Made by a program: the position numbers and the translations under genes. Of a DNA stretch of 64,000 bases, positions 2,925 through 49,269 are shown in pieces (within the stretch, counting starts at the first letter, position 1; each line of letters opens with the position of its first letter). Origin of the DNA: Methylosinus trichosporium OB3b. Its GTDB lineage: Bacteria; Pseudomonadota; Alphaproteobacteria; Rhizobiales; Beijerinckiaceae. The stretch is taken from assembly GCF_002752655.1 (NCBI RefSeq), contig NZ_CP023737.1, positions 1,178,001 through 1,242,000 of the forward strand. Direction: 5' to 3'. The notes under the pieces are model-generated. The model ran no database searches. It was not told where the DNA came from and worked only from the letters and a program-made list of their open reading frames with translations.

Positions 2925-3938
2925 TCACGCCCCTCGCGCCGCAACCGCCTGCTCTATCGCCCCGAAGATCGAGCGGCCGGCCGCGTCGCGCATCTCGATC
3001 CGCACTCTGTCGCCCGGCTTCAAAAAGGGCGTGCGCGGCGCGCCGCCGCGCAGGGTTTCGACGACGCGCTGCTCGGCGATGCAGGAATAGCCGAGCCCGC
3101 CTTCCGCGATCGGCCGGCCCGGCCCGCCGTCGGCGGCGCGGTTCGACACTGTGCCGGAGCCGATGATCGAGCCCGCCGCGAGCGCGCGCGTCCGCGCCGC
3201 ATGAGCGATCAGCGCGCCGAAGTCGAAGGTCATGTCGCAGCCGGCGTCGGGCCGCCCGAGCGGCGCGTCATTGACGAAGGAGAGCAGCGGCAGCGCCAGC
3301 TTGCCGCCGCTCCAGGCGGCGCCGAGCTCGTCCGGCGTCACCGCCACCGGCGAGAAGGATGAGGCCGGCTTCGACTGAAAAAAGCCGAAGCCCTTGGCGA
3401 GCTCGCTCGCGGTGAGCCCGCGCAGAGTGACGTCGTTGACCAGCATCACCAGCGCGACATGGCCGAGCGCCGCCCCGGCCGCCACGCCGAGCGGCGCGTC
3501 ATCGGTGACGACGGCGACCTCGGCCTCGAGATCGAGCCCATATTTCTCGTCGAGAAAGGGAATGGGCGCATGCGGGGCGAGAAAACCGTCGGAGCCGCCC
3601 TGATAGATCAGCGGATCGTTCCAGAAGGACGGCGGCATCTCGGCGCCGCGCGCCTTGCGCACCAGAGCGACGTGATTCACATAGGCCGAGCCGTCCGCCC
3701 ATTGAAAGGCGCGCGGCAGCGGCGACAAGCAATCCCGCTCGCGAAAACGAATTTCCGGAACGAGCCCCGCCTCCAGCGCCTCGGCGAGCTCGGCCAGGCG
3801 CGGCGCCGCCTGCGCCCAATCGTCGAGCGCGGCCTGTAGAGTGGGCGCGACGGCCGCCGCTTCTGTCGCGCGGGTCAGATCGGTCGAGACGACGACCAGC
3901 CGTCCGTCACGGCCGCCGCGCAGCGAAGCGAGTTTCAT
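2925..3938 (-). CDS. fahA: Fumarylacetoacetate hydrolase family protein
   Basis: A 337-residue FAH-superfamily hydrolase. It carries the metal-binding core of the family (LDLEAEVAVV, in which the glutamates match the metal ligands) and the GSGTVSN segment near the C-terminus. It lies directly behind homogentisate dioxygenase on the same strand, so the natural role is the last step of tyrosine degradation, splitting fumarylacetoacetate into fumarate and acetoacetate. It is shorter than the roughly 420-residue eukaryotic enzyme but matches the short bacterial form found beside hmgA. A related acylpyruvase activity cannot be excluded. Its end abuts the aldo/keto reductase gene, suggesting translational coupling. 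Confidence 0.88.
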   Translation of the reverse strand: MKLASLRGGRDGRLVVVSTDLTRATEAAAVAPTLQAALDDWAQAAPRLAELAEALEAGLVPEIRFRERDCLSPLPRAFQWADGSAYVNHVALVRKARGAEMPPSFWNDPLIYQGGSDGFLAPHAPIPFLDEKYGLDLEAEVAVVTDDAPLGVAAGAALGHVALVMLVNDVTLRGLTASELAKGFGFFQSKPASSFSPVAVTPDELGAAWSGGKLALPLLSFVNDAPLGRPDAGCDMTFDFGALIAHAARTRALAAGSIIGSGTVSNRAADGGPGRPIAEGGLGYSCIAEQRVVETLRGGAPRTPFLKPGDRVRIEMRDAAGRSIFGAIEQAVAARGA

Positions 3939-5404: not shown

Positions 5405-5602
5405 CGCGTCATGGCCGGGCTTGTCCCGGCCATCCACGCAACGCCGCGGAACAATGCTTGGAAAGCGGCTGTGATTGGTCGGCTTATCGCCACCGCCGAG
5501 TCGCGGAGACTGTCGCCGCAACGTCGACGTCGCGCGAAAACATGCGAGAAACCTCGGCGTCGCGGCGTGGATGGCCGGGGCGAGCCCGGCCATGACGGCC
5601 CT
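5405..5602. repeat. Inverted intergenic repeat pair
   Basis: Two copies of a GC-rich unit in opposite orientation. The left one (about 5409-5445) reads ATGGCCGGGCTTGTCCCGG and onward; the right one (about 5563-5602) is its near reverse complement (GGATGGCCGGGGCGAGCCCG). Translated, the units give the AIHA / GHDG peptides seen in many Hyphomicrobiales intergenic repeats. Together they look like a small non-autonomous mobile repeat between hmgA and hpd. No gene is seen in 5346-5679. Confidence 0.65.
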
Positions 5603-33037: not shown

Positions 33038-34591
33038 TTAGGCGCGCTGTTTCCAGGGCGTCGCGACGATGCGTCGCCAGGTCGCGTTCGTCGCTTTATC
33101 GAGCGCCTCCGCGAGACAGGCGAACCCGTCGTAACCCCAGAAGGCGTTGCCTTTTCGATCAAAGAAGGGAGAGAAGGGCAGAGCGACCTGCGCGCGCTTT
33201 CGCCATTCATATTCGCCGCGCGATTCGCCGTCGCCGAAATGCAGGACGAGATCGGGCTTGGCCTCGGCGAGATAGGAGTCGATCGCCGCTTCGTCGGGAT
33301 GATCGGCGTCGCATCTGAGGCGCGGCGTTCGGCGCTTGCCCGTCTTGCCGATCCAGCCGGAGGCGTCGCCGATGCGCAGTCCCAAGAGACGATAGGGCTC
33401 GAGCTGTGTCTCCGTCATCGGACGAAAATGCAACATGAGCTTGTTCCGCAGACGCGGGCGATAGCGCTCGATGGTCGCGCGCACCAGCGCCTCTCCACGC
33501 GCGATCGTCTGCTCGGCGCGGCGCGCGGTTCGGCGATCAAGACGCTCACCGATCGCGCGCAACGAAGCCGTCGTCATGGACGGACTCTCGAAGCAGGTCC
33601 AGATGATCGGCGTCGAGAGCCATTGACGCAAAAGATCCGCATAGCCGCCGCGCATGTCCTCGTCCATCACATCGACGGCGCCTGCGAAGCCGATGATGAA
33701 GCGGCAATCCTTCATGCGCGCGAGATCTAGGCTCGAGGATTGCGTGATCTCGTGAACCGTTTCAATGCCCATATCGGCGAGCAGCTTGGAGACGATCCAG
33801 ACGAGCGCCGGCGCTTCGCGCGCGTAGGGCAGAGCCACGTGCATCTTCTTCGAGGAGGGGCGGCTGAAGATCCGGGAGGCGGACTGCAGCGCGGCGGCTG
33901 TCTCGACCGCCCAAGATTTGTAGGTGTCGAGAGGCAGCACGAGCCTCTGCGTTCGCCGCATCTCGATTTTCGCAATGCCCTTCACGTTCGAGTCGAGCAG
34001 CGCCACGGGGTCCTCGCTCGTAACAGCGAAGCCGCGCGCCAGCGGAAACAATTCGACGGCTTCGCTCATAGCGCGTCGCAACCGCTCGTCGCCGCCGTCC
34101 TCGAGATCGTCCGCGCGAAGATCTGTGCAGAAATGCAGCGCACTGAAGCTTTCGATCCCTTGAGCGAAGCCGGGCGCGCGCAGCCGAAGGCTCTGCCCAT
34201 AGGCGCCGCAGCCCACCGGGCCGTGATCGAGCGGAATCATGTCGAGCGCGGACGCCCAGCTGGCGACGCTGCGGCCGTGCAGACCGCCGCTGCAGAAGTC
34301 GATCTTGCCGGCGTCCGGATAGGACGGCGGCGAGAAATAGCGCGGACGCGCCGGATCGCGACTTTCGTCGGCGCGTGGCGCAGGCTTCTCCCCGGCGCAG
34401 AGCTTGGGCTTGCGGCCGCGCGGGTCCTTTCGATAGTCGACGTCCGGAGCCGGCGCGATCGTCTGAACTGGGACGGGCGACGCAGGCTCGATAACGATGC
34501 CCGTCTTTCCAGCAGAAGGACCGGTTCGCCAACGGATCGACTGACTCTTCGCGCGTTTCGGCAAGAATGGGTTGAGGGAGCGCATCTGCAT
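33038..34591 (-). CDS. Stand-alone NifD-like nitrogenase component 1 homologue
   Basis: A 517-residue protein that aligns by eye along its length with the nitrogenase alpha subunit. DHGPVGCGAYGQS matches NifD SHGPVGCGQYS, and FCTDLRADDLEDGGDERL matches FTSDFQERDIVFGGDKKL. P-cluster ligands Cys100 and Cys128 are present, but the third is Asp194 (SEDP instead of SECP). Cys296 (MKDCRF) sits where the cofactor Cys is expected, while the cofactor His near the C-terminus (MHSW) is replaced by PFFDR. The first 90 residues are an extra, Arg/Pro-rich extension. No NifK, NifH or NifEN gene is near. Fold assignment is strong; catalysis of N2 reduction is very unlikely. Confidence 0.88.
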   Translation of the reverse strand: MQMRSLNPFLPKRAKSQSIRWRTGPSAGKTGIVIEPASPVPVQTIAPAPDVDYRKDPRGRKPKLCAGEKPAPRADESRDPARPRYFSPPSYPDAGKIDFCSGGLHGRSVASWASALDMIPLDHGPVGCGAYGQSLRLRAPGFAQGIESFSALHFCTDLRADDLEDGGDERLRRAMSEAVELFPLARGFAVTSEDPVALLDSNVKGIAKIEMRRTQRLVLPLDTYKSWAVETAAALQSASRIFSRPSSKKMHVALPYAREAPALVWIVSKLLADMGIETVHEITQSSSLDLARMKDCRFIIGFAGAVDVMDEDMRGGYADLLRQWLSTPIIWTCFESPSMTTASLRAIGERLDRRTARRAEQTIARGEALVRATIERYRPRLRNKLMLHFRPMTETQLEPYRLLGLRIGDASGWIGKTGKRRTPRLRCDADHPDEAAIDSYLAEAKPDLVLHFGDGESRGEYEWRKRAQVALPFSPFFDRKGNAFWGYDGFACLAEALDKATNATWRRIVATPWKQRA

Positions 34592-36471: not shown

Positions 36472-38951
36472 GCTTCAATGAGGTCCGGGCGGTGAAGCCC
36501 GGAAATACCAGCTGCATCACGAGATCCTCGAGCCCGTAGGCGAGGCTTCAATGAGGTCCGGGCGGTGAAGCCCGGAAATACCCACTGGGTCTTGCCGTAG
36601 GTCGTTCCTTCTTCGACGCTTCAATGAGGTCCGGGCGGTGAAGCCCGGAAATACTCCGCGACGGTCGCCAATGTCTCCCGCGGCACCGGGGAGCTTCAAT
36701 GAGGTCCGGGCGGTGAAGCCCGGAAATACCTCTCGATGCGGAAGCCGCCGCCGTCGCAGCCGCCGCGCTTCAATGAGGTCCGGGCGGTGAAGCCCGGAAA
36801 TACTATGGCCGAGCGGATCGGCCTCGGGCTCAGAGCCTATCGCTTCAATGAGGTCCGGGCGGTGAAGCCCGGAAATACGGCGGTGAAGCAGGAACTTGGG
36901 CTAACATCGCCCGAGGCTTCAATGAGGTCCGGGCGGTGAAGCCCGGAAATACGTTCAGTGCGATGAGATTTGGTCATTCACCTACGCCAAGGCTTCAATG
37001 AGGTCCGGGCGGTGAAGCCCGGAAATACAACGTCCGTCCGGCCCGCGCGAGCTTACGCCTCGTGGCTTCAATGAGGTCCGGGCGGTGAAGCCCGGAAATA
37101 CCTCGGTTGCGCTATGCGTAATCGCATGGCGGCCCATCGTGCTTCAATGAGGTCCGGGCGGTGAAGCCCGGAAATACCATTCAACTCGGCGATGGCATGA
37201 GAAAGCTGCGCGTCGCTTCAATGAGGTCCGGGCGGTGAAGCCCGGAAATACGACGCGACGAACCTGAAAGCGACGTCTGCGGACCCTGCGCTTCAATGAG
37301 GTCCGGGCGGTGAAGCCCGGAAATACTTGCTGCGACTGGCACGGGCAATCGGGTGATGACGCTTCAATGAGGTCCGGGCGGTGAAGCCCGGAAATACAAC
37401 GACTACGGGGTCGAGCTGTTCGATCCGAAGATCGAGCTTCAATGAGGTCCGGGCGGTGAAGCCCGGAAATACGCCGTCCGCGGCAAGACCGCAGATATCC
37501 CCGTGACGCTTCAATGAGGTCCGGGCGGTGAAGCCCGGAAATACGAGCGACGATCTGCGCTGCGAAGCCGTCTATGAGCTGCTTCAATGAGGTCCGGGCG
37601 GTGAAGCCCGGAAATACCGACGAGGGTGCGGATGCATGGGCACGATCCGAGGGCGTGCTTCAATGAGGTCCGGGCGGTGAAGCCCGGAAATACCTGTCGG
37701 CGAGATGATGATCATCACGAAGAACAGCCAGCTTCAATGAGGTCCGGGCGGTGAAGCCCGGAAATACGGGAATCGACTTCTCAAAGATACCGTCCTTGGC
37801 CGCCTGCTTCAATGAGGTCCGGGCGGTGAAGCCCGGAAATACCGCCGAAGAGGTTGGTATCGGAGAGCAGTTCGTCAGCTTCAATGAGGTCCGGGCGGTG
37901 AAGCCCGGAAATACTTGCCGCCGAGGCGCATGCGGCCCCAGAGCTTACGGATCGCTTCAATGAGGTCCGGGCGGTGAAGCCCGGAAATACCAGTCGCTAC
38001 ATCGCGTGCCTATTATCCCTCCATCGCTTCAATGAGGTCCGGGCGGTGAAGCCCGGAAATACGCGACAGGAACGACCGCGACATTGCTCCTGGGGATGCT
38101 TCAATGAGGTCCGGGCGGTGAAGCCCGGAAATACCCCGGCGAGAAGGTCAACCCGATCGATCCGTCGCGCCCGCTTCAATGAGGTCCGGGCGGTGAAGCC
38201 CGGAAATACCCGAGTATAGCTTCTTATGAGAGACACAAGCGTAAACACGCTTCAATGAGGTCCGGGCGGTGAAGCCCGGAAATACCTTGCGTGCGGGTTC
38301 CTGATGCGGACATCTTCGATGAAGCTTCAATGAGGTCCGGGCGGTGAAGCCCGGAAATACGCGGCGTGGGGTCCGAATCGTCCGCCGCCGTCTCGGGCTT
38401 CAATGAGGTCCGGGCGGTGAAGCCCGGAAATACATCGAGCGCCGGGGCACCAAATCGCAGGCTTACCACGCTTCAATGAGGTCCGGGCGGTGAAGCCCGG
38501 AAATACATATAAGATCGTGGAGCGGAAGGGCTCTCTCTACCCGCTTCAATGAGGTCCGGGCGGTGAAGCCCGGAAATACCTCGGCGGCGTCGATCGGCGC
38601 GGTGATGGCGATCTCCGCGCTTCAATGAGGTCCGGGCGGTGAAGCCCGGAAATACGCATTGTCCCGCATCTCCAAACGCAAGAGACTTGTTGTGCTTCAA
38701 TGAGGTCCGGGCGGTGAAGCCCGGAAATACTCGGCGACCCGACGGATGGATATAAGGGATTCTATGCTTCAATGAGGTCCGGGCGGTGAAGCCCGGAAAT
38801 ACATCATGTTTTACGGGATGATTCACGGCACGTTCACCGGGCTTCAATGAGGTCCGGGCGGTGAAGCCCGGAAATACTATGCAGGCACCGCGCGATCCGC
38901 AGGCTCACCTGCGGGCTTCAATGAGGTCCGGGCGGTGAAGCCCGGAAATAC
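36472..38951 (-). CRISPR. CRISPR array, 34 repeats of 37 bp and 33 spacers
   Basis: Repeat starts run from 36472 to 38915 at a spacing of 71-76, giving spacers of 34-39 bp. On the plus strand each repeat begins GCTTCAATGAGGTCCGGGCG and ends AAGCCCGGAAATAC; all copies appear identical. A 7-bp stem (TCCGGGC/GCCCGGA) with a six-base loop can form. Read on the minus strand the repeat starts GTATTTCC and ends CATTGAAGC, the usual type I form with an ATTGAA(A/G)C 5' handle, and this is also the direction of cas4-cas1 and cas2. Transcription is therefore most likely leftward with the leader at 38952-39169. Confidence 0.97.
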
Positions 38952-39508: not shown

Positions 39509-41236
39509 TCAGCGGGGGACGATGTGGGGGAAGCTCGCGATCTCGCCGAGCAGGAAGCGCGCCAGCAGCCGCGCCTGCACATGCAGCAGCCGGCGCATCG
39601 AGAGCTGATAGCCGAACACGGGATGGGTGGTCTCCTGATCGAGCCGACGCTCATAGGCTTCGACCAGCGCGCGCCGTCCCTTGGTCGAGAGATTGCAGCC
39701 GCCGGCGCCATAGACGAAATCGCCGGGGGAGACCTCGCCATTGTTGAGCGCGGTGAGAACGGCGGAATCGGCGAGCAGCGGACGGAACGGCTCGAGAAAA
39801 TCGAGCGCCAGCGAGGGGCGGCCCGGGCGCTCGACGTGATAAAAGCCCTTCCACGGATCGAGGCCGACAGTGGTCAGAGAGGCCGTGACGCTGCGGGTCA
39901 AGAGCGCATAGGCGAGCGACAGGCAGGCGTTGACCGGATCGGCGGGCGGGCGGCGGTTGCGCCGCTCGAAGGCGAATTCCGGCAAGGCTTTCACGGCGTC
40001 GGTGAACAGCAGCGGGAGATTGCGGAAATAGACCGCCGCCGCCTCGCCCTCGAGGCCGAGCAGCAGGCTCGCGTCAGTGGCGAGGGCGGCGCGATCGGCG
40101 AGGCCGGTCAGAGCGTCGAGCGGCGCGGCGCGCTTCTCCGCCTCGCCGCGCCAATTGCGGCGCAGCAGCGTGCGCTGATTGCGGATTTTCGCCGCGACGA
40201 GATCGCGCGCGAAGCCGAGACGGCGCGCGGGATCGGCCGCCGCCGCATATTGCGCGGTGCGCGTCGCCGCGCTGCGCGGCCCCTGCCCTCCCGTGGCGCC
40301 GAGAAACCAGAAGCCGGAGGACATCCAGGCGACCGGAATTTCCCGACGCAACAGCTCGTGCATGGCGGGCGTCGAGAGGCTGACCGGGCCGGCGAGCGCC
40401 AGCTCGGAGATTTCGTCGAGCGCGACGACCCGCTTCTCCTCGCCCTCGATCTCGACGACGAGCGTCGCGTCCTTCTTGCCGATGCGCGCGCCGGGAACCT
40501 GCACATAGACCGGCAGCGCCGGACTCGCGGGCGGCGGCGGCGTGCGCGGGATGGCGCCCTTGCGGAACCAGTTCACCTCATCCGGCAGGCAGACGGGCAG
40601 CAGCGAGCAGCGCGGGCATTTCGGCGAAGCGTCGAGCGGCGGCGGCGTGCGGCCGGAGGCGAGCGCGAGCCGCAGCTCGGAGGCGGCGCGCAAGGTCGTC
40701 GTGATCAGCGCCTCGTCGAGGGGAACGCGCACACGCTCGCGGCTCTCGGCGAACCAGAGGGCGCCCTCCTCGCATCGATAGCCCGCCTCGCGCAGCAGCA
40801 GGCCCTGCACGCAGACTTGCGCCCGTTCCGGCAGATAGGCGCCCTCGGCGACATGCGGGCGCTTGCCGACCTTGGTGTCGACGGGGACGACGAAGCCGTC
40901 CTCCGCCTCCAGCGCGTCGATCTCGGCGACGAGGCCGAGCGTCTCGGAGGCGAGCGCGAGACGGCGCGTCTTGAACGGCTTTTCCTCGAGCGCCTCCGGC
41001 GCCGGAAGCGCGGGCGCGCGGCCCTTGTCGCTGCCGCGATGGGCGCGCTTGCCGGCGGCGGTGTCGGCGTTGCCGGCCCATTCGCCCTGCGCCCATTCGA
41101 GATAAGCGAGGCGCGGACAATAGAGCCATTCGTTGATCATGCGCGCCGGGACGAGAGTTTCGTCGCGCACGGCGGGCGGCGCATGCAGGGGCAATTCGCC
41201 CTGCGCGGGAGTCTTGCGTGTGTCGAAATCGGTCAT
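39509..41236 (-). CDS. cas4-cas1: Cas4-Cas1 fusion protein
   Basis: A 575-residue fusion typical of type I-G (formerly I-U) systems. Residues 1-225 are Cas4: the iron-sulfur cysteines appear in YCPRLAYLEW and KCPRCSLLPVCLPDE, and the nuclease core in VVPVDTKVGKRPH. Residues 235-575 are Cas1: LVVEIEGEEKRVVALDEISELAL starts the domain, and the metal ligands lie in LLGLEGEAA (Glu) and FYHVERPGRPSLALDFLEPF (His and acidic residue). Cas4 trims and selects PAM-containing prespacers and Cas1 integrates them. Confidence 0.95.
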   Translation of the reverse strand: MTDFDTRKTPAQGELPLHAPPAVRDETLVPARMINEWLYCPRLAYLEWAQGEWAGNADTAAGKRAHRGSDKGRAPALPAPEALEEKPFKTRRLALASETLGLVAEIDALEAEDGFVVPVDTKVGKRPHVAEGAYLPERAQVCVQGLLLREAGYRCEEGALWFAESRERVRVPLDEALITTTLRAASELRLALASGRTPPPLDASPKCPRCSLLPVCLPDEVNWFRKGAIPRTPPPPASPALPVYVQVPGARIGKKDATLVVEIEGEEKRVVALDEISELALAGPVSLSTPAMHELLRREIPVAWMSSGFWFLGATGGQGPRSAATRTAQYAAAADPARRLGFARDLVAAKIRNQRTLLRRNWRGEAEKRAAPLDALTGLADRAALATDASLLLGLEGEAAAVYFRNLPLLFTDAVKALPEFAFERRNRRPPADPVNACLSLAYALLTRSVTASLTTVGLDPWKGFYHVERPGRPSLALDFLEPFRPLLADSAVLTALNNGEVSPGDFVYGAGGCNLSTKGRRALVEAYERRLDQETTHPVFGYQLSMRRLLHVQARLLARFLLGEIASFPHIVPR

Positions 41237-41242
41237 TGAAAA

Positions 41243-41270
41243 GCCTCTCGCGCAGGATGGTGCGAGAGGC
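41243..41270. repeat. Small hairpin left of the DUF1640 gene
   Basis: GCCTCTCGC and GCGAGAGGC arms around a short loop. The same stem occurs at 41613-41644, so the two hairpins flank the DUF1640 gene. Confidence 0.6.
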
Positions 41271-41285: not shown

Positions 41286-41582
41286 TCAGCGCGTGAGCTT
41301 CATCGCCGCGAAGAGGAAGCCGCCGAGGGCGATCTGCGTGACGACGAGCCAGCGGAGGATGTCGACCTTGAGGTTGGCGGCGCTGGAGTCGATTCTTCCC
41401 TCGAGCCGCGTCTCGATCTTTTCCATCTTGACCTCGAGATCGCGCACGTCCGCTTTGGTGGCGAGCGCGCCGGCGTCGATGCTCACCATAGCTTCCACGA
41501 CGCCGGTAGCTTGATCTTCCGTGAAGCCCCGCTTGCGCAGAGCTTGCGCGACGGCGAGGGTGTCGATGGTGAGCGCAGACAT
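41286..41582 (-). CDS. DUF1640-like coiled-coil membrane protein
   Basis: A 98-residue protein: an N-terminal helical part (TLAVAQALRKRGFTEDQATG), an LATKADVRDLEVKMEKIETR coiled coil and a C-terminal transmembrane helix (VVTQIALGGFLFAAMKL). This pattern matches the small bacterial DUF1640/CCDC90-type proteins. It lies between the solitary CRISPR repeat and cas4-cas1, on the same strand as cas4-cas1. Both sides carry matching hairpins. A role in CRISPR function is not established. Confidence 0.7.
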   Translation of the reverse strand: MSALTIDTLAVAQALRKRGFTEDQATGVVEAMVSIDAGALATKADVRDLEVKMEKIETRLEGRIDSSAANLKVDILRWLVVTQIALGGFLFAAMKLTR

Positions 41583-41612: not shown

Positions 41613-41644
41613 GTGCCTCTCGCACCCTAAGATGCGAGAGGCAC
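41613..41644. repeat. Small hairpin right of the DUF1640 gene
   Basis: GTGCCTCTCGCA and TGCGAGAGGCAC arms (12 bp) with an eight-base loop; stem shared with 41243-41270. Confidence 0.65.
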
Positions 41645-41654
41645 ACCGGGCAAT

Positions 41655-41691
41655 TTGCATTAGCGTGTCACGTTACGACTTTCATTGAGAC
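41655..41691 (-). ncRNA. Guide-like segment of the mini-CRISPR
   Basis: Read on the minus strand from 41691, the bases following the repeat are GTCTCAATGAAAGTCGTA. They match 17 of 18 bases of the plus strand at 41807-41824 (only base 12 differs) and diverge after that. Directly 5' of that site is TTC. A spacer with a partial, seed-side match and correct PAM is what CreA/CreR regulatory guides look like. The 3' end given here assumes normal spacer length. Confidence 0.65.
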
Positions 41692-41727
41692 GCTTCAATG
41701 AGGCCCGGGCGTGCGCCCGGGAGATGC
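41692..41727 (-). CRISPR. Solitary diverged CRISPR repeat (mini-CRISPR)
   Basis: A 36-base relative of the array repeat, GCTTCAATGAGGCCCGGGCG then TGCGCCCGGGAGATGC on the plus strand. The first 12 bases are identical; the stem changes from TCCGGGC/GCCCGGA to CCCGGGC/GCCCGGG, a compensated pair, and the loop is shortened. No second repeat occurs at the normal spacing. It lies between the divergent cas operons. In crRNA orientation (minus) it is followed by a guide-like sequence from 41691 leftward. Confidence 0.85.
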
Positions 41728-41735
41728 CCGGCCAC

Positions 41736-41768
41736 ATTTTATGTGAGGCATCAACGTAATAGGGTCAA
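41736..41768 (-). promoter_or_regulatory. Possible promoter of the mini-CRISPR RNA
   Basis: On the minus strand TTGACC (41768-41763) is followed by AT-rich CACATAAAAT ending at 41736. Spacing is 17-21 bases depending on the -10 chosen. It would start transcription just before the solitary repeat. Confidence 0.4.
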
Positions 41769-41803
41769 TGGATCTAATGGGTGGAATGAGCGACATACCG
41801 CTG

Positions 41804-41824
41804 TTCGTCTCAATGAACGTCGTA
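41804..41824 (+). promoter_or_regulatory. Target site of the mini-CRISPR guide, with TTC PAM
   Basis: TTC at 41804-41806 followed by GTCTCAATGAACGTCGTA. This is the mate of the guide-like segment at 41691 and below. It lies in the region between the divergent cas operons, so Cascade binding here could repress cas, DUF3892 or a small RNA transcript. Confidence 0.6.
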
Positions 41825-41859
41825 GACAAGTCGATTCGACTCCTGTAGCTTGGCTCCGT

Positions 41860-41899
41860 CGAAAAGAAAAACGGCGCCATGCGGGAACATGGCGCCGTT
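41860..41899 (-). terminator. Rho-independent terminator (minus strand)
   Basis: A 12-bp perfect stem AACGGCGCCATG/CATGGCGCCGTT with a six-base loop, followed on the minus strand by TTTTTCTTTTC. It would end a short leftward transcript that starts between here and the DUF3892 gene. Confidence 0.75.
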
Positions 41900-41954
41900 A
41901 GCCCGACTGTGGCCGCAGGGCCCGCCGGGATAGATGCTTGGTAAGCACGCTTGC

Positions 41955-42008: not shown

Positions 42009-42293
42009 ATGCAAGAATTCAGGATCGATTGCGTCATCAAGCCTCACCGCGAAAGCACGCATGAGCACATTACCCAGGTCGGTGGGCCGAACAGTGTCGG
42101 AGGTCGATGGCGTGAGCCGGTCGAAACGGTAATCGCGCATATCGAGAGTCGTCTGCGCCGCTACTATGTCGATGAGGGCGGCAAGCGAGTCTACGTCGAG
42201 GTGCGCGAAGGCGTGTCGAAACGAAAATTCATCCAGACTCGGGCCGACGGGGTTTGGAGGAACAATCTGCTCGCCCTGGACAATTGCCGGTGA
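42009..42293 (+). CDS. DUF3892 protein
   Basis: A 94-residue protein beginning MQEFRIDCVIKPHRE, with the repeated pattern of the DUF3892 family (HEHITQVGG, ETVIAHIES, KFIQTRADGVWRNNLLAL). The ATG at 42009 follows an AAAGGA ribosome site. The family has no known function but is often found in accessory DNA. It is the first gene on the cas3 side, 144 bases upstream of cas3, and may be co-transcribed with it. Confidence 0.8.
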   Translation: MQEFRIDCVIKPHRESTHEHITQVGGPNSVGGRWREPVETVIAHIESRLRRYYVDEGGKRVYVEVREGVSKRKFIQTRADGVWRNNLLALDNCR

Positions 42294-42437
42294 GGCTCGC
42301 GTAGAACTTTCGGCGGCTTGCGCTCATGCGCAGGCCGCTCGCCTGTGAATCATCAGCGCGCCCTCCTTGACCTCGGCCATTTGTCGCGCTCGAATGTGCG
42401 CGCTTTCTCGCGGTCATTGCAGCCGTCCGGGTTTCTC

Positions 42438-45141
42438 ATGTCCTTCGAGGCTAATTTCCACACTCTGACCGGCCATTCGCCCTTCTCTTGGCAGAGGCGG
42501 CTCTACGACGATTTCTTCGCCCACGGCAAAACCCCCAGCGCCGTCGATGTGCCGACGGGGCTCGGCAAGACCTCGGTGATGGCACTGTGGCTGATCGCGC
42601 GGGCGCATGGCGCGCCATTGCCGCGGCGGCTCGTCTATGTCGTCGACCGACGGGCCGTCGTCGATCAGGCGACGCGCGAGGCCGAGAAGCTGCGCGACAA
42701 TCTCGCGAGCGACGAGGCCGCCGCCTTGCGCGAAGGCCTACGGCTCGGGAACGGGCGTCTCCCCATCTCCACGTTGCGCGGACAATTCGCCGACAATCGC
42801 GCCTGGCTCGACGATCCCACCGCGCCGGCGATCGTCGTCGGCACCGTCGACATGATCGGCTCGCGGCTGTTGTTCGAGGGCTATGGCGTCTCGCGCAAGA
42901 TGCGGCCTTATCATGCCGGCTTTCTCGGCGTCGATACGCTGGTGCTGCTCGACGAGGCGCATCTCGTTCCGCCCTTCGCGCATCTGCTGCGCGCCATAGA
43001 GACGGACGCCGCCCTCTGGCCGAAAGACGAGGACGACGCGAGGCTCGTCCGCCGCCTCGTCCTGCTGCCGCTGTCGGCGACGCTGCGCGCCGATGCTCGG
43101 CGCCTCGATCGCGCGCCCTTCACGCTCGAGGACGAGCGGGAGGACAAAGCTGTGCAAAAGCGCCTGAGGGCGGCCAAGCGCCTCGTCTTCCGCGAGCTCG
43201 CGGCCGATCCGGACGGGCAGCTCGCGCAGGCGGCGTTCGATCTCGCGACCAAAGAGCCCGCGCGCGTCGTCGTTTTCTGCGATCGGCGCGAGAAGAAGAA
43301 GGGCGAGCCGAGCGCCGACGGCGTTCGCGAGGCGCTGGGCAAGCTCGCGAAGAAAGCTGAGGCTGCCGCCCCCGAGATCGAGACGCTTACCGGCGGTCGC
43401 CGCATGCGCGAGCGTGAGGCGACGGAAAAGCGTCTGACCGAGCTCGGCTTCATCGGCGCGCGCGGCGAGACGAAGCCCGCCGTGCTCGTCGCCACATCGG
43501 CCGGCGAGGTCGGCGTCGATCTCGACGCCGATCACATGATCTCGGACCTCGTCGCCTTCGAGCGCATGGCGCAACGCCTCGGCCGCGTCAATCGCCGCGG
43601 CGAGCGCGCGTCGTCGGAGGTCCTCGTCTTCTGCCACGCCGACGAGCCCGCGCCGAAGAACCCGAAGGAGCCGACGGCGGAGGAGGAGCGCGCGCGGCTT
43701 CCTTTTCGCGCGCGAGAAGCGCTCGAATATCTGCCGAAGCTCGGCGACGGCTTCGACGCATCTCCCGGCGCCTTGCGCGTGCTGGCGCGACAATCGACCG
43801 ACCGCGTGACGAAGGCGACGACCCCCGAGCCATTGCGCCCGGCGCTCACCCGTGCGCTCGTCGACGCTTGGTCGCTCACCTCGCTCGAGACGCATGAGGG
43901 CCGGCCCGAGATCGCGCCCTGGTTGCGCGGCTGGATCGAGGAGGAGGAGCCGCAGACGACGCTGCTGTGGCGGCGATGGCTTCCCGTGCGACGCGCCGTG
44001 GGCGAGGACAAGCCGCGCGATCCGCGCCGATATGCGGCGGAGGTCGACAAGTTTTTCGAGGTCGCGCCGCCCCATGCGAGCGAATTGCTCGAGGCGGAAA
44101 CGCGGCGCGTTCTCGACTGGCTGCGGGCTCGCGCGACGGCGACTCAGAATGTGCGGCGAAAGGACGACGACGATCTTCCCGCCGACAACGATATCGTCTG
44201 CTTCGCGCTCGGCGGGCGCGACGGCTTCACCGCCTATTCGCTGTCCGAGCTGGCGAAGCCGCGCGACAAGAGACAGATGGAGGCGCTGGAGCGCGACATT
44301 ATCGGCCACACGCTCGTGCTCGATGCGCGGTTGCGCGGCTTGTCCGACTTCGGCGCGCTCGGCAAGGATGCGGATACGCCGATCATCTGCGCCGACGACG
44401 ATTCCGAATGGAGTGAAATCATCGGCTTTCGCGTGCGGGCGCAGACCGGCGACGACGACGGCGCGACGACGCGCCCGCGCGACTATCGCTTTCCGAAAAT
44501 GGTCGACGGCGATGGCGAGGCGCGCGAGTCTCTCGTCGTCGAACCTCTCGGCGGCGGCGGCGGCGAGGATGCGCGCTCTATTCGCACGACTCCGCAGACG
44601 CTCGATGTTCATCAGGCCTGCGTCGAGACGACGGCGCACGCCATCGCCGCGGCGCTCGCTCTGCCGCCGCATTATAGCGAGGCCCTCTCCCTCGCGGGTA
44701 GGTTGCACGATGAAGGGAAGCGCGCCGACCGCTGGCAGCGCGCGTTCAACGCGGCGCGTGATCGCCGTGACTTCGGGCTCGACTCCGAGCTCGCGAAGAC
44801 GCGCGGCCCGATCCATCAGCCCACTCTCGACGGCTATCGCCATGAGTTCGGCTCTCTGGGCCGCGCCGAGACCGACGAAACGATTCGCCTCCTGTCGGAA
44901 GAGCATCGCGATCTCGTGCTGCATCTCGTCGCCGCGCATCACGGCCGCGCGCGGCCGGTCATAGAGACGCGCGGCTGCGACGACGGGCCGCCCTCCGTTC
45001 TCGAGGAGCGCGCGCGCCGCGTGGCGCTGCGCTTCGCGCGGCTGCAAAAGCGCTGGGGTCCCTGGGGCCTCGCCTGGTGGGAGGCGCTGTTGCGCGCGGC
45101 GGATCAGAAGGCCTCTCGAGAGAACGAAGCGGGAGGCGGCG

Positions 45142-45158
<17 letters not shown>
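42438..45158 (+). CDS. cas3: CRISPR helicase-nuclease Cas3 (type I-G)
   Basis: A 906-residue effector. Helicase motifs: VDVPTGLGKTSVMALW (Walker A), LLDEAHLVPPF (DEAH), PLSATLRAD and QRLGRVNRRGE. The HD nuclease part is at the C-terminus (LAGRLHDEGKRADRWQRAF, LVAAHHGRARP), the reversed order known for the GSU0052-type Cas3 of I-G systems. The start at 42438 is chosen since conserved sequence (FEANFHTLTGHSPFSWQRRL) begins at once. It unwinds and degrades target DNA after Cascade binding. Overlaps the next gene by 17 bases. Confidence 0.95.
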
Positions 45159-47096
<1,938 letters not shown>

Positions 47097-47106
47097 GGCC
47101 GCGCCC

Positions 47107-49269
47107 ATGCCCGCTCTTCTCGTGACCGTGCGCTTCGTCGAGGGGCGCTATCACGGCCGGCCGGAATGGCCGCCCTCCCCCGCGCGGCTGTTTCAGGCGC
47201 TCGTCGCCGGAGCCGCGCGCGGCGCGCGGCTCCATGAGGACGATATTCGCGCTCTGCGATGGCTCGAAGCTCTCGCTCCGCCGGTCATCTTCGCGCCGCC
47301 GGCGCGCGAGGGCGCGGGCTTCGTCAATTTCGTGCCCAATAATGATCTCGACGCGGTCGACGGCGATCCGACGCGCGTCGGCGAGCTGCGAGTCGGCAAG
47401 ACGATCAAGCCGCGCTACTTCGACGCCGACGCGCCGCTGCATTATCTCTGGGCCTTCGATGAGAACCCTGCGCACGCTCTCGCCGCGCAGATCGGCTCGA
47501 TCGCGGAGCGGCTCTATCAGCTCGGCCGCGGCGTCGACATGGCGCATGCGCAGGCTGTGATCTTGGACGATGAAGCGACGCATCGCCTCGATCTCGAAGG
47601 GCGCGCGCATTATCCAGCCCCGACGCGCGGCGCGCTGCCTCTCGCCTGCCCGACCAATGGCTCCCTCGACAGCCTCATGCTCCGCCATGAGGCCTTCCGC
47701 CATCGTTTTCTCGATGCTGTCGGCGCCGGCAAAAGAAGCGCGGGAGGTCGCGTCTTCGCGCAACCACCCAAGCCACTTATTCGTATCATCGGCTATGACA
47801 GCCCGGCGCGGCTTCTGCTCTATGACATCCGCCGCATCGAGGTGGAGAAGAGCGATCCGCTCTTCGCGCCGCAGCCGCTCACCAAGACCGCGACTCTCGT
47901 CGTCACGCTTCGCGACGCCGCGGCCGCTCGGCTGTGCCGCGCGCTTCCGCCGCCGCGGGCCGCGCTCGTCGAGCCCGTCTTCGTCGGCCGTGGCGCGACC
48001 GATGCCGACAAGACGAGCCGCATCAGGATCATTCCGCTTCCCTCGGTCGGTTTCGTTCATGCCGACCGCGCCATTCGCCGGGTCCTGGTCGCCGTTCCCG
48101 CGAATTGTCCCTTGCCCGTCGACGACATCGAGTGGGCTTTCTCGGGAAGAGACGAAGCGAAAGGCGCCCCGGACAAGGGGATGAGCTGGTCGCTCGTTCC
48201 TGCTTCGGACCGCACTATGCTCAGGCGCTACGCGGCCGAAGGAGAGAAGGCGGCGTCGGTTTGGCGCAGCGTGACGCCGGCCGCTCTACCCGTCGGCCGA
48301 AGATGGGGACGAGGCGGCGGCTTCGCTCGCTCGGAGGCGGAAGCGGCGGCGGCGCACGCCGTGCGGGATGCGCTTCGCCATGAAGGCGTCCATGAGACGG
48401 CTCTCGCCATTCGAGTTCAGCGCGAGCCTTTCGACGCCAATGGCGCACGCGCCGAGAATTTCGCGGGCGCGCGATTCGAGCCGGCGCAATTATGGCATGT
48501 CGAGATTACTTTCGCTGCTCCGGTTTTTGGGCCGCTCGTCATCGGCGACGGCCGCTGGCTCGGCCTCGGCCTCATGGCGCCCGAGGCAGCCCATTCGGAC
48601 GGCGTGCTCGCGTTCTCGATCGACGGCGGTCTCTCGGCGAGTGCCGACCCTATCGACGTCGCCCGCGCTCTACGTCGCGCCATAATGGCGCGAACGCCCC
48701 GTTTGCCGAGTGAAAAGGAGCTGCCCCTTTTTTTCACGGGCCACGAAGAGGATGGGAATCCCGCTCGCTCAGGCGCTCATCAGCATATTGCCTGCGTTTT
48801 CGACGAGGCTCGCCGTCGCTTGTTGATCCTCGCGCCCCATTTGCTCGAGCGGCGAAATCGGCGGTCGGGAGAGACCGAGAACTGGCGACGGCTCGAAAGC
48901 GCCATGAGCGGATTCATCGAATTACGGGCCGGCGTCGCCGGATTGCTGCGTCTGTCGCCGGCGTCCGTCGATCCTCGTGTCGACCCCGTGTTCGCGCCGT
49001 CGCGAGAGTGGCTGAGCGCCACCCGCTATAGGGTTCTGCGACACCAGAAGCGTGGCGACGCGCGCCTGGCGTTCGCCGAGGATCTCGGCAGCGAACGAGC
49101 ACGTAACGGCCTGCCGAGGCCCGAGATATCGATCGTCGAGGTCGGCGGCGGTCGCGGGGGACTGGCGGGAACCGCGCTTCTGCGATTTTCTCGAGCCGTT
49201 CCAGGACCAATTTTGATCGGCCGCGACCGACATTTCGGAGGCGGCTTATTTGTCAACGGTTCGGAGTGA
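47107..49269 (+). CDS. csb2: Type I-G Cas5-Cas6 fusion Csb2
   Basis: A 720-residue protein of the GSU0054 family. The N-terminus (LLVTVRFVEGRYHGRPEWPP) is the Cas5-like RAMP; the C-terminus carries the glycine-rich Cas6 segment (PILIGRDRHFGGGLF). It should process pre-crRNA at the repeat hairpin and cap the crRNA 5' handle. The start at 47107 is ten bases behind csb1; an upstream open frame overlaps csb1 and is discarded. No separate cas6 is present, in line with this fusion. Confidence 0.92.
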   Translation: MPALLVTVRFVEGRYHGRPEWPPSPARLFQALVAGAARGARLHEDDIRALRWLEALAPPVIFAPPAREGAGFVNFVPNNDLDAVDGDPTRVGELRVGKTIKPRYFDADAPLHYLWAFDENPAHALAAQIGSIAERLYQLGRGVDMAHAQAVILDDEATHRLDLEGRAHYPAPTRGALPLACPTNGSLDSLMLRHEAFRHRFLDAVGAGKRSAGGRVFAQPPKPLIRIIGYDSPARLLLYDIRRIEVEKSDPLFAPQPLTKTATLVVTLRDAAAARLCRALPPPRAALVEPVFVGRGATDADKTSRIRIIPLPSVGFVHADRAIRRVLVAVPANCPLPVDDIEWAFSGRDEAKGAPDKGMSWSLVPASDRTMLRRYAAEGEKAASVWRSVTPAALPVGRRWGRGGGFARSEAEAAAAHAVRDALRHEGVHETALAIRVQREPFDANGARAENFAGARFEPAQLWHVEITFAAPVFGPLVIGDGRWLGLGLMAPEAAHSDGVLAFSIDGGLSASADPIDVARALRRAIMARTPRLPSEKELPLFFTGHEEDGNPARSGAHQHIACVFDEARRRLLILAPHLLERRNRRSGETENWRRLESAMSGFIELRAGVAGLLRLSPASVDPRVDPVFAPSREWLSATRYRVLRHQKRGDARLAFAEDLGSERARNGLPRPEISIVEVGGGRGGLAGTALLRFSRAVPGPILIGRDRHFGGGLFVNGSE

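Follow-up and report, generated by a model that had tools for sequence, protein, structure and literature searches.

A putative Cascade-guided regulatory mini-CRISPR in the type I-G locus of Methylosinus trichosporium OB3b and its counterparts in sister loci

Three kinds of crRNA-like regulatory guide are the closest described systems to the element reported here. CreR, a mini-CRISPR beside the cas genes whose guide shows limited, PAM-flanked complementarity to the cas control region, is reported for types I-B, I-E and V-A in the accessible portion of PMC13131331, and the accessible sections of a review place it in Type I and Type V-A (PMC12737573). CreA, the guide of the type I-B CreTA systems of H. 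hispanica and H. hubeiense, is associated with degenerate repeats and has a seed formed by nt 1-5 and 7-11 behind a TTC; the creA of H. hispanica has one degenerate repeat (psiR) and ends in a terminator (PMC8501985, partial text). In CrePA, a crRNA-like RNA and Cascade repress a small protein gene, and the protein, CreP, is typically of the KilA-N kind (PMC12737573). Type I-G systems, in turn, comprise Cas3, Cas8g, Cas7, Csb2 and Cas4-1, with a TTN PAM and an 8-nt crRNA 5' handle that is contacted in the effector by Cas7.1 alone; the accessible sections of the paper describing them make no mention of a regulatory guide (PMC9638904). The comparison also drew on parts of PMC9458426 and PMC12948488. 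The CreR and CreTA literature searched names, in its accessible text, no I-G or I-U case, and no paper was found that joins CreR, I-G and CRISPR as whole words, although the supplement of the original CreR study may list I-G cases.

The window, i.e. the whole stretch of 64,000 nt of the M. trichosporium OB3b genome that was analysed, holds a solitary repeat with a guide and a TTC-flanked partial target, whose coordinates and letters in the original prediction were confirmed to the base:

41692..41727, minus strand: degenerate solitary CRISPR repeat (psiR), 36 nt, GCATCTCCCGGGCGCACGCCCGGGCCTCATTGAAGC; weak match to Rfam CRISPR-DR16
41699-41692, minus strand: 8-nt handle ATTGAAGC, the 3' end of psiR; processing predicted from sequence
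41657..41691, minus strand: guide (psiS) of about 35 nt; its nt 1-18 (41691-41674) read GTCTCAATGAAAGTCGTA and match the target at 17/18
41804..41806, plus strand: PAM TTC, read from the sequence (TTN is the I-G PAM in PMC9638904)
41807..41824, plus strand: target (protospacer) GTCTCAATGAACGTCGTA, 17/18 against the guide and 116 bp away
41613..41644, minus strand: intrinsic terminator of the predicted guide RNA, a 14-bp stem and then the T run CAGCATTTTT, directly after the guide
41741..41768, minus strand: possible guide-RNA promoter TTGACC-16-TCACAT, weak and found by eye, ending just before the repeat

The psiR shares with the array repeat its last 12 nt, CCTCATTGAAGC, and the CCGGGC/GCCCGG stem, while the hairpin loop is changed and one C-G pair is added (by eye). 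CRISPR-DR16 matches it at 27.3 bits against a gathering score of 35 (E 6.6e-4 over 1151 bases), and psiR is not listed in the whole-window Rfam search at the gathering score. The single mismatch within the 18 paired nucleotides is at nt 12, and the earlier claim that the match stops after 18 bases is borne out, with agreement at 1 of the next 18 positions. The handle had been expected to start at 41691; it occupies 41699-41692, and 41691 is the first base of the guide. The strong terminator had gone unmentioned, and the predicted guide RNA folds well (z -6.0); the possible promoter is absent from the output of a stricter scan. The guide seed is also complementary to the repeat handle (41674-41703), and the RNA may fold the one onto the other.

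As in CreR, a repeat-like sequence outside the array could, from its letters, yield an 8-nt handle, and complementarity is limited to the PAM side of a local site that carries the PAM of the system itself (17/18, TTC). As in CreA, nt 1-5 and 7-11 are paired next to the PAM, and the window pairs nt 1-11 without a gap. With its single psiR and its closing terminator, the element also has the anatomy of H. hispanica creA.

The match is unique in the genome: within the 5.18 Mb, the guide 18-mer occurs within 2 mismatches at two sites only, the guide itself and the target. The PAM followed by nt 1-5 and 7-11 is found at one other genomic site, inside an open frame, with about 0.6 expected by chance. 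Whether or not the PAM was required, none of 300 shuffled guides attained the window score in the 600 bp to each side. The best scores of the 33 array spacers were 6 when a TT flank was required and 8 when it was not, as against 15 for the window guide.

The surrounding genes are as follows:

36472..38951, minus strand: main CRISPR array, 34 identical 37-nt repeats and 33 spacers; same strand as psiR
39509..41236, minus strand: cas4g/cas1g fusion (NF049935, 717.9 bits, cut-off 560)
41286..41582, minus strand: small CCDC90-like ORF between the guide gene and cas4/cas1 (29 bits, below the Pfam cut-off of 33.5)
42009..42293, plus strand: DUF3892 gene (PF13031, E 4e-12), the first gene past the target
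42318..45158, plus strand: cas3g ORF (TIGR02621, 627.6 bits, cut-off 400), likely start ATG 42438 (by eye)
45142..46011, plus strand: cas8g2 (TIGR04106)
46008..47096, plus strand: csb1/cas7g (TIGR02570)
46912..49269, plus strand: csb2, a Cas5-Cas6 fusion for crRNA processing (TIGR02165); the ORF is probably overlong at its 5' end

All five members of the type I-G set (Cas3g, Cas8g2, Csb1, Csb2 and the fused Cas4-Cas1) score above curated cut-offs, which confirms that the cas genes of the window are of type I-G, as had been proposed. The repeat does lie between divergent cas operons, but the CCDC90-like ORF separates it from cas4/cas1. Two similar terminator-like hairpins, 41243-41270 and 41613-41644, with arms GCCTCTCGC/GCGAGAGGC, flank this ORF, and related sequence persists in a broken locus of the same genus, L056. 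A few kb from the array, 33038-34591 encodes a nitrogenase component-1-like protein that scores well below the nifD/nifE cut-offs.

Beyond the target, two features of the control region were noted:

41823..41851, plus strand: possible promoter toward the cas genes, TAGACA-17-TAGCTT, directly adjoining the target; on its own weak (8/12, p 0.19)
41870..41899: strong hairpin within the presumed cas-ward transcript's leader; with its T run it reads as a terminator on the minus strand

The target lies between genes, 202 bp upstream of DUF3892 and 631 bp upstream of the likely start of cas3g, and the adjoining possible promoter is weak (p 0.19); a strict promoter scan reported none in the window at TAGACA-17-TAGCTT. 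The hairpin overlaps a weak Rfam ncS54 match. The leader is structured, and no toxin-RNA-like Rfam match was found in the 1151 bases searched. One candidate tRNA mimic was rejected: GCTTGGTAAGC (41936-41946), in the leader before DUF3892, resembled the anticodon arm of tRNA-Thr, and its sole other genomic copy is not a tRNA according to ARAGORN. With GCTTNNNAAGC occurring about once per 52 kb in the collected loci, the resemblance is probably due to chance.

Set against the described systems, the window places a CreR-like mini-CRISPR beside the cas genes, but the effector would be that of type I-G, which has the Cas5-Cas6 fusion Csb2 and lacks a cas11 gene, cas3 is preceded by DUF3892 and a long structured leader, and repression is predicted. 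Unlike in CreTA, the guide gene does not lie downstream of the unit past the target but is oriented divergently from it. With CrePA the window would share the repression of a small protein gene by Cascade and a crRNA-like RNA, but the first gene past the target encodes a DUF3892 protein with no KilA-N match and precedes cas genes.

Intergenic DNA of the window has no real relative in 60 genomes, the sole non-self match being of 35 nt; guide-target covariation was therefore examined across differing guides and not by alignment. Among nine genomes of the same genus, only G004 was found to hold pieces close to the cas4-cas1 and cas3g of the window; these are broken, and the guide region is missing. 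The cas1 matches of G002, G003 and G007 scored lower and stayed under the I-G cut-off. The sample comprised 47 I-G loci in 49 records, collected from genome contigs (20 loci), from whole-genome searches, which are samples and no full census, and from plasmids. The only near-duplicates are three Azospirillum loci (L045, L054, L055; at least 90% alike over 500 bp), and L012, L038 and L039 are aliases of L094, L092 and L088. The loci were scanned for a repeat end outside arrays followed by a TT-flanked local target, and 12 stray repeats were searched again without the PAM condition.

Strong guide-target pairs are present in 8 of the 47 loci: the window, L091 (G285), L092 (G364), L093 (G445), L094 (G057), L104 (G071), L106 (G051) and L145 (G691). 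One more, L146 (G630), is called probable (score 5) on four grounds alone: mismatches begin at nt 6, the flanking triplet is TTA, two psiR are present, and TTGACC-17-TAGAGT follows; 42/300 shuffles reach its score with a TT flank. The other 38 loci, some of them truncated by contig ends, lack such a pair. With handles of up to 2 mismatches, every TT-flanked match scoring at least 7 is one of the eight strong pairs. The TT-flanked matches that were set aside all have 3-mismatch handles. They comprise window 47239 minus, L039/L088 4948/5120, L053, L088 18592, L097, L102, L104 2790, L142 18662 and L183 twice (scores 7-8), L185 twice (score 13), where array repeats form palindromes at the end of a contig, and L093 5520 (score 10), the second repeat of L093. 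Handles with at most 1 mismatch and no such target occur in L044, L039/L088, L087, L146, L101 (at the stretch edge) and L142 (14537, inside cas4-cas1); those of L049, L054 and L185 resemble array repeats, and that at L106 81 is a second repeat.

The paired lengths are 17/18 in the window, 19/22 in L145, 15/17 in L092 and L106, 11/11 and then partial in L104, 19/24 in L093, 10/11 in L094 and 13/16 in L091. The guides differ between strong loci, except for those of L093 and L094, which belong to one genus and are alike. The same combination of guide, local target and PAM is thus kept with different sequences. When the best match was taken without the PAM condition, nine of the 12 stray repeats scored at least 7, and eight of these nine matches were TTN-flanked; the exception, an 8/8 match in L087 with a CGG flank, is reached by 33/300 shuffles. 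The PAM count leans, because five of the eight strong loci were first picked by the TT-conditioned scan; the three pairs first found without it (window, L094 and L092) are all TTN-flanked. Singly, the weaker pairs of L091 and L094 are reached by 58/300 and 15/300 shuffles without the PAM, and by 3/300 and 1/300 with it. The outcome named beforehand as refuting, a repeat kept while the guide-target match is lost, was looked for in these loci. Eight keep repeat and match, and a ninth probably does; stray repeats without a TTN-flanked target also exist, in L044, L039 (= L088), L087 and L045, the last with a 2-mismatch handle and a best score of 7 beside GAC.

Across the eight strong pairs, mismatches fall at nt 1-5 in 0/40 positions, at nt 6 in 6/8, at nt 7-11 in 7/40, at nt 12 in 4/8, at nt 13-17 in 6/40 and at nt 18 in 6/8, after which agreement is near chance, with pairing continued to nt 22-24 in L093 and L145. 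The excess at nt 6 over the remainder of nt 1-11 has p 8e-5, and the pairing pattern was not part of any search criterion. The R-loop formed by Cascade leaves every sixth base unpaired, and the mismatches of the eight pairs have this spacing. The paired stretches coincide with the seed measured for haloarchaeal CreA, nt 1-5 and 7-11 behind TTC (PMC8501985). In a 9 x 9 matrix of guides against target regions, the diagonal scores were 15, 7, 11, 9, 8, 11, 11, 13 and 5 (7-15 for the strong loci, 5 for L146), while the off-diagonal maximum was 6 and the mean 3.6; each guide fits its own locus only. None of 297 comparisons of array spacers with the nine regions reached a score of 7. Of eight loci with an intact divergent layout of cas4-cas1 and interference genes, six have the element (five strong and L146) and two, L100 and L137, do not; a ninth divergent locus, the broken L056, is without it.

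The unit past the target leads to cas3 in the window, L091, L093, L094, L145 and L146, and directly to csb1 in L106; in L092 and L104 it is not a cas operon. Small ORFs past the target vary, with DUF3892 in the window and L091 and others in L092-L094; that of L092 is helix-turn-helix-like (sub-threshold matches), in a unit that approaches csb2 from the opposite side. The L091 target stops only a few bases short of the repeat, and the guide there may therefore limit its own gene too. Read away from the guide gene, sigma-70-like promoter elements follow the target in L093 (TTGACA-17-TAAAAA, p 0.003), L094 (TTGACT-17-TATAAA, p 0.018) and L146 (p 0.044 for the element given above); they are weaker in L106, L145 and the window, and at chance level in L091 (p 0.80) and L092 (p 0.90). 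The promoter score summed over nine loci was reached by 0/1000 mononucleotide shuffles, with L104 read in the wrong direction (p 0.77). Despite differing sequence, the window, L092, L093, L094, L145 and L146 have a strong hairpin close to where the cas-ward transcript should begin, and the small ORF and cas3 of L093 are separated by a perfect hairpin (by eye). Also in L093, the sequence after the second degenerate repeat (5520-5568, which is also a terminator stem) matches 5329 at 12/13 with a TTA flank, between the -35 and -10 of the cas-ward promoter, and is possibly a second guide. L183, an I-G locus on the Cereibacter sphaeroides plasmid CP031754.1, carries, divergent from cas3, a gene for a WYL-domain regulator, and the stray-repeat scan found no mini-CRISPR in it.

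L104 (G071:C382, 2789-3206) has a different content. Its target (3203, minus) is followed on one strand by an isolated tRNA-like RNA (2970-3072) and then by psiR1, guide and psiR2, the same order as in haloarchaeal creTA, where the unit precedes psiR1-psiS-psiR2 on one strand (PMC8501985, partial text). A promoter-like TTGCCG-18-TACAAT stands at the target (by eye). The RNA matches Rfam tRNA at 47.9 bits (E 4e-7) and has a long variable arm and an anticodon loop UUUGCAA, i.e. a class II tRNA-like body with an alanine UGC anticodon. ARAGORN called no tRNA in L104, and no close copy was found among 30 relatives, 23 of which gave short matches of 26-44 nt, mostly to one tRNA arm. L104 is a plausible candidate for a CreTA with a tRNA toxin. 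As the units of L092 and L104 are not cas operons, I-G loci may use guides for more than one purpose.

Taken together, the window element is very probably a regulatory guide for Cascade, of the CreA/CreR kind, a judgement for which the comparison of sister loci is the decisive evidence. The original proposal, a Cascade-guided repressor of a toxin RNA or of the cas/DUF3892 transcripts, is supported as the best reading. Repeat, guide and terminator would form a one-repeat mini-CRISPR gene whose transcript Csb2 would cut to a crRNA-like guide with handle ATTGAAGC, a small RNA predicted to begin with ATTGAAGCGTCTCAATG. The I-G Cascade (Cas8g2, Csb1 and Csb2) would bring this guide to the partial match behind TTC, in the region that separates the divergent cas operons, and, with only about 17 PAM-proximal pairs formed, should bind there without destroying the DNA. 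Bound Cascade would block the promoter reading into DUF3892-cas3g-cas8g2-csb1-csb2, a negative feedback on the Cascade genes that would relax when array crRNAs or anti-CRISPRs draw Cascade off. Such repression of the cas interference operon, in the manner of CreR, is probably the main job of the window guide, since the sequence past the target reads into that operon, which cas autorepression fits better than a toxin does.

The same guided repression could instead guard a toxin, as in CreTA or CrePA, with the leader RNA or the DUF3892 protein being toxic and released when Cascade fails. DUF3892 and the structured leader, which precede cas3, speak against plain cas repression, and the 100 nt past the target fold better than shuffles in six of nine loci (window, L092, L093, L094, L145 and L146; z -2.3 to -5.3), those of L091, L104 and L106 being not clearly structured (z -1.0 to -1.5). 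The differences between small ORFs and the creTA-like unit of L104 point the same way. However, the small ORF of the window points in the same direction as cas3g, inspection by eye showed no T-run terminator in the 145 nt that separate the two (the terminator scan reached 42350), and in L106 the target lies directly before csb1; a toxin target in the window is less likely and, on our estimate, has a rather low probability.

A mini-array might have taken up a spacer from neighbouring DNA and now be a decaying, functionless relic, and the stray repeats kept without a target by several I-G loci fit this picture; since decay would not preserve nt 1-5 in 8/8 pairs yet lose nt 6 in six and nearly everything past nt 17, we consider it improbable. 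Another candidate is an inverted-repeat operator for a protein regulator, with TCAATGA-like boxes near 41682, 41694 and 41810. In its favour, the first bases of the guide resemble the handle's reverse complement, and the predicted fold pairs the two. Sister loci, however, keep the layout with other sequences, with a TTN-flanked match that begins exactly at the repeat end, which leaves the operator very improbable indeed.

A wider and speculative possibility, to which we give little credence at present, is that I-G loci contain an entire set of control elements guided to their sites with Cascade and not described so far, most of which would autorepress cas while some would guard toxins of a new kind, including the L104 tRNA; the leader and DUF3892 of the window could be one of these. 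If so, the class II tRNA of L104, with its alanine UGC anticodon, might lead to serine being inserted at alanine codons once Cascade fails.

With the CreR reports surveyed confined to types I-B, I-E and V-A, or to Type I and Type V-A, and the whole-word search for CreR with I-G empty, the window looks like a known kind of element in a new subtype. The nine natural I-G guide-target pairs, one of them probable, form a test set for seed and PAM, and because the I-G effector is minimal, with the handle contacted by Cas7.1 alone, it offers a test across Cascades of the rule that pairing at nt 1-5 and 7-11 allows binding and no cutting. If the guided-repressor reading is true, RNA-guided self-regulation of cas genes would be extended to type I-G.
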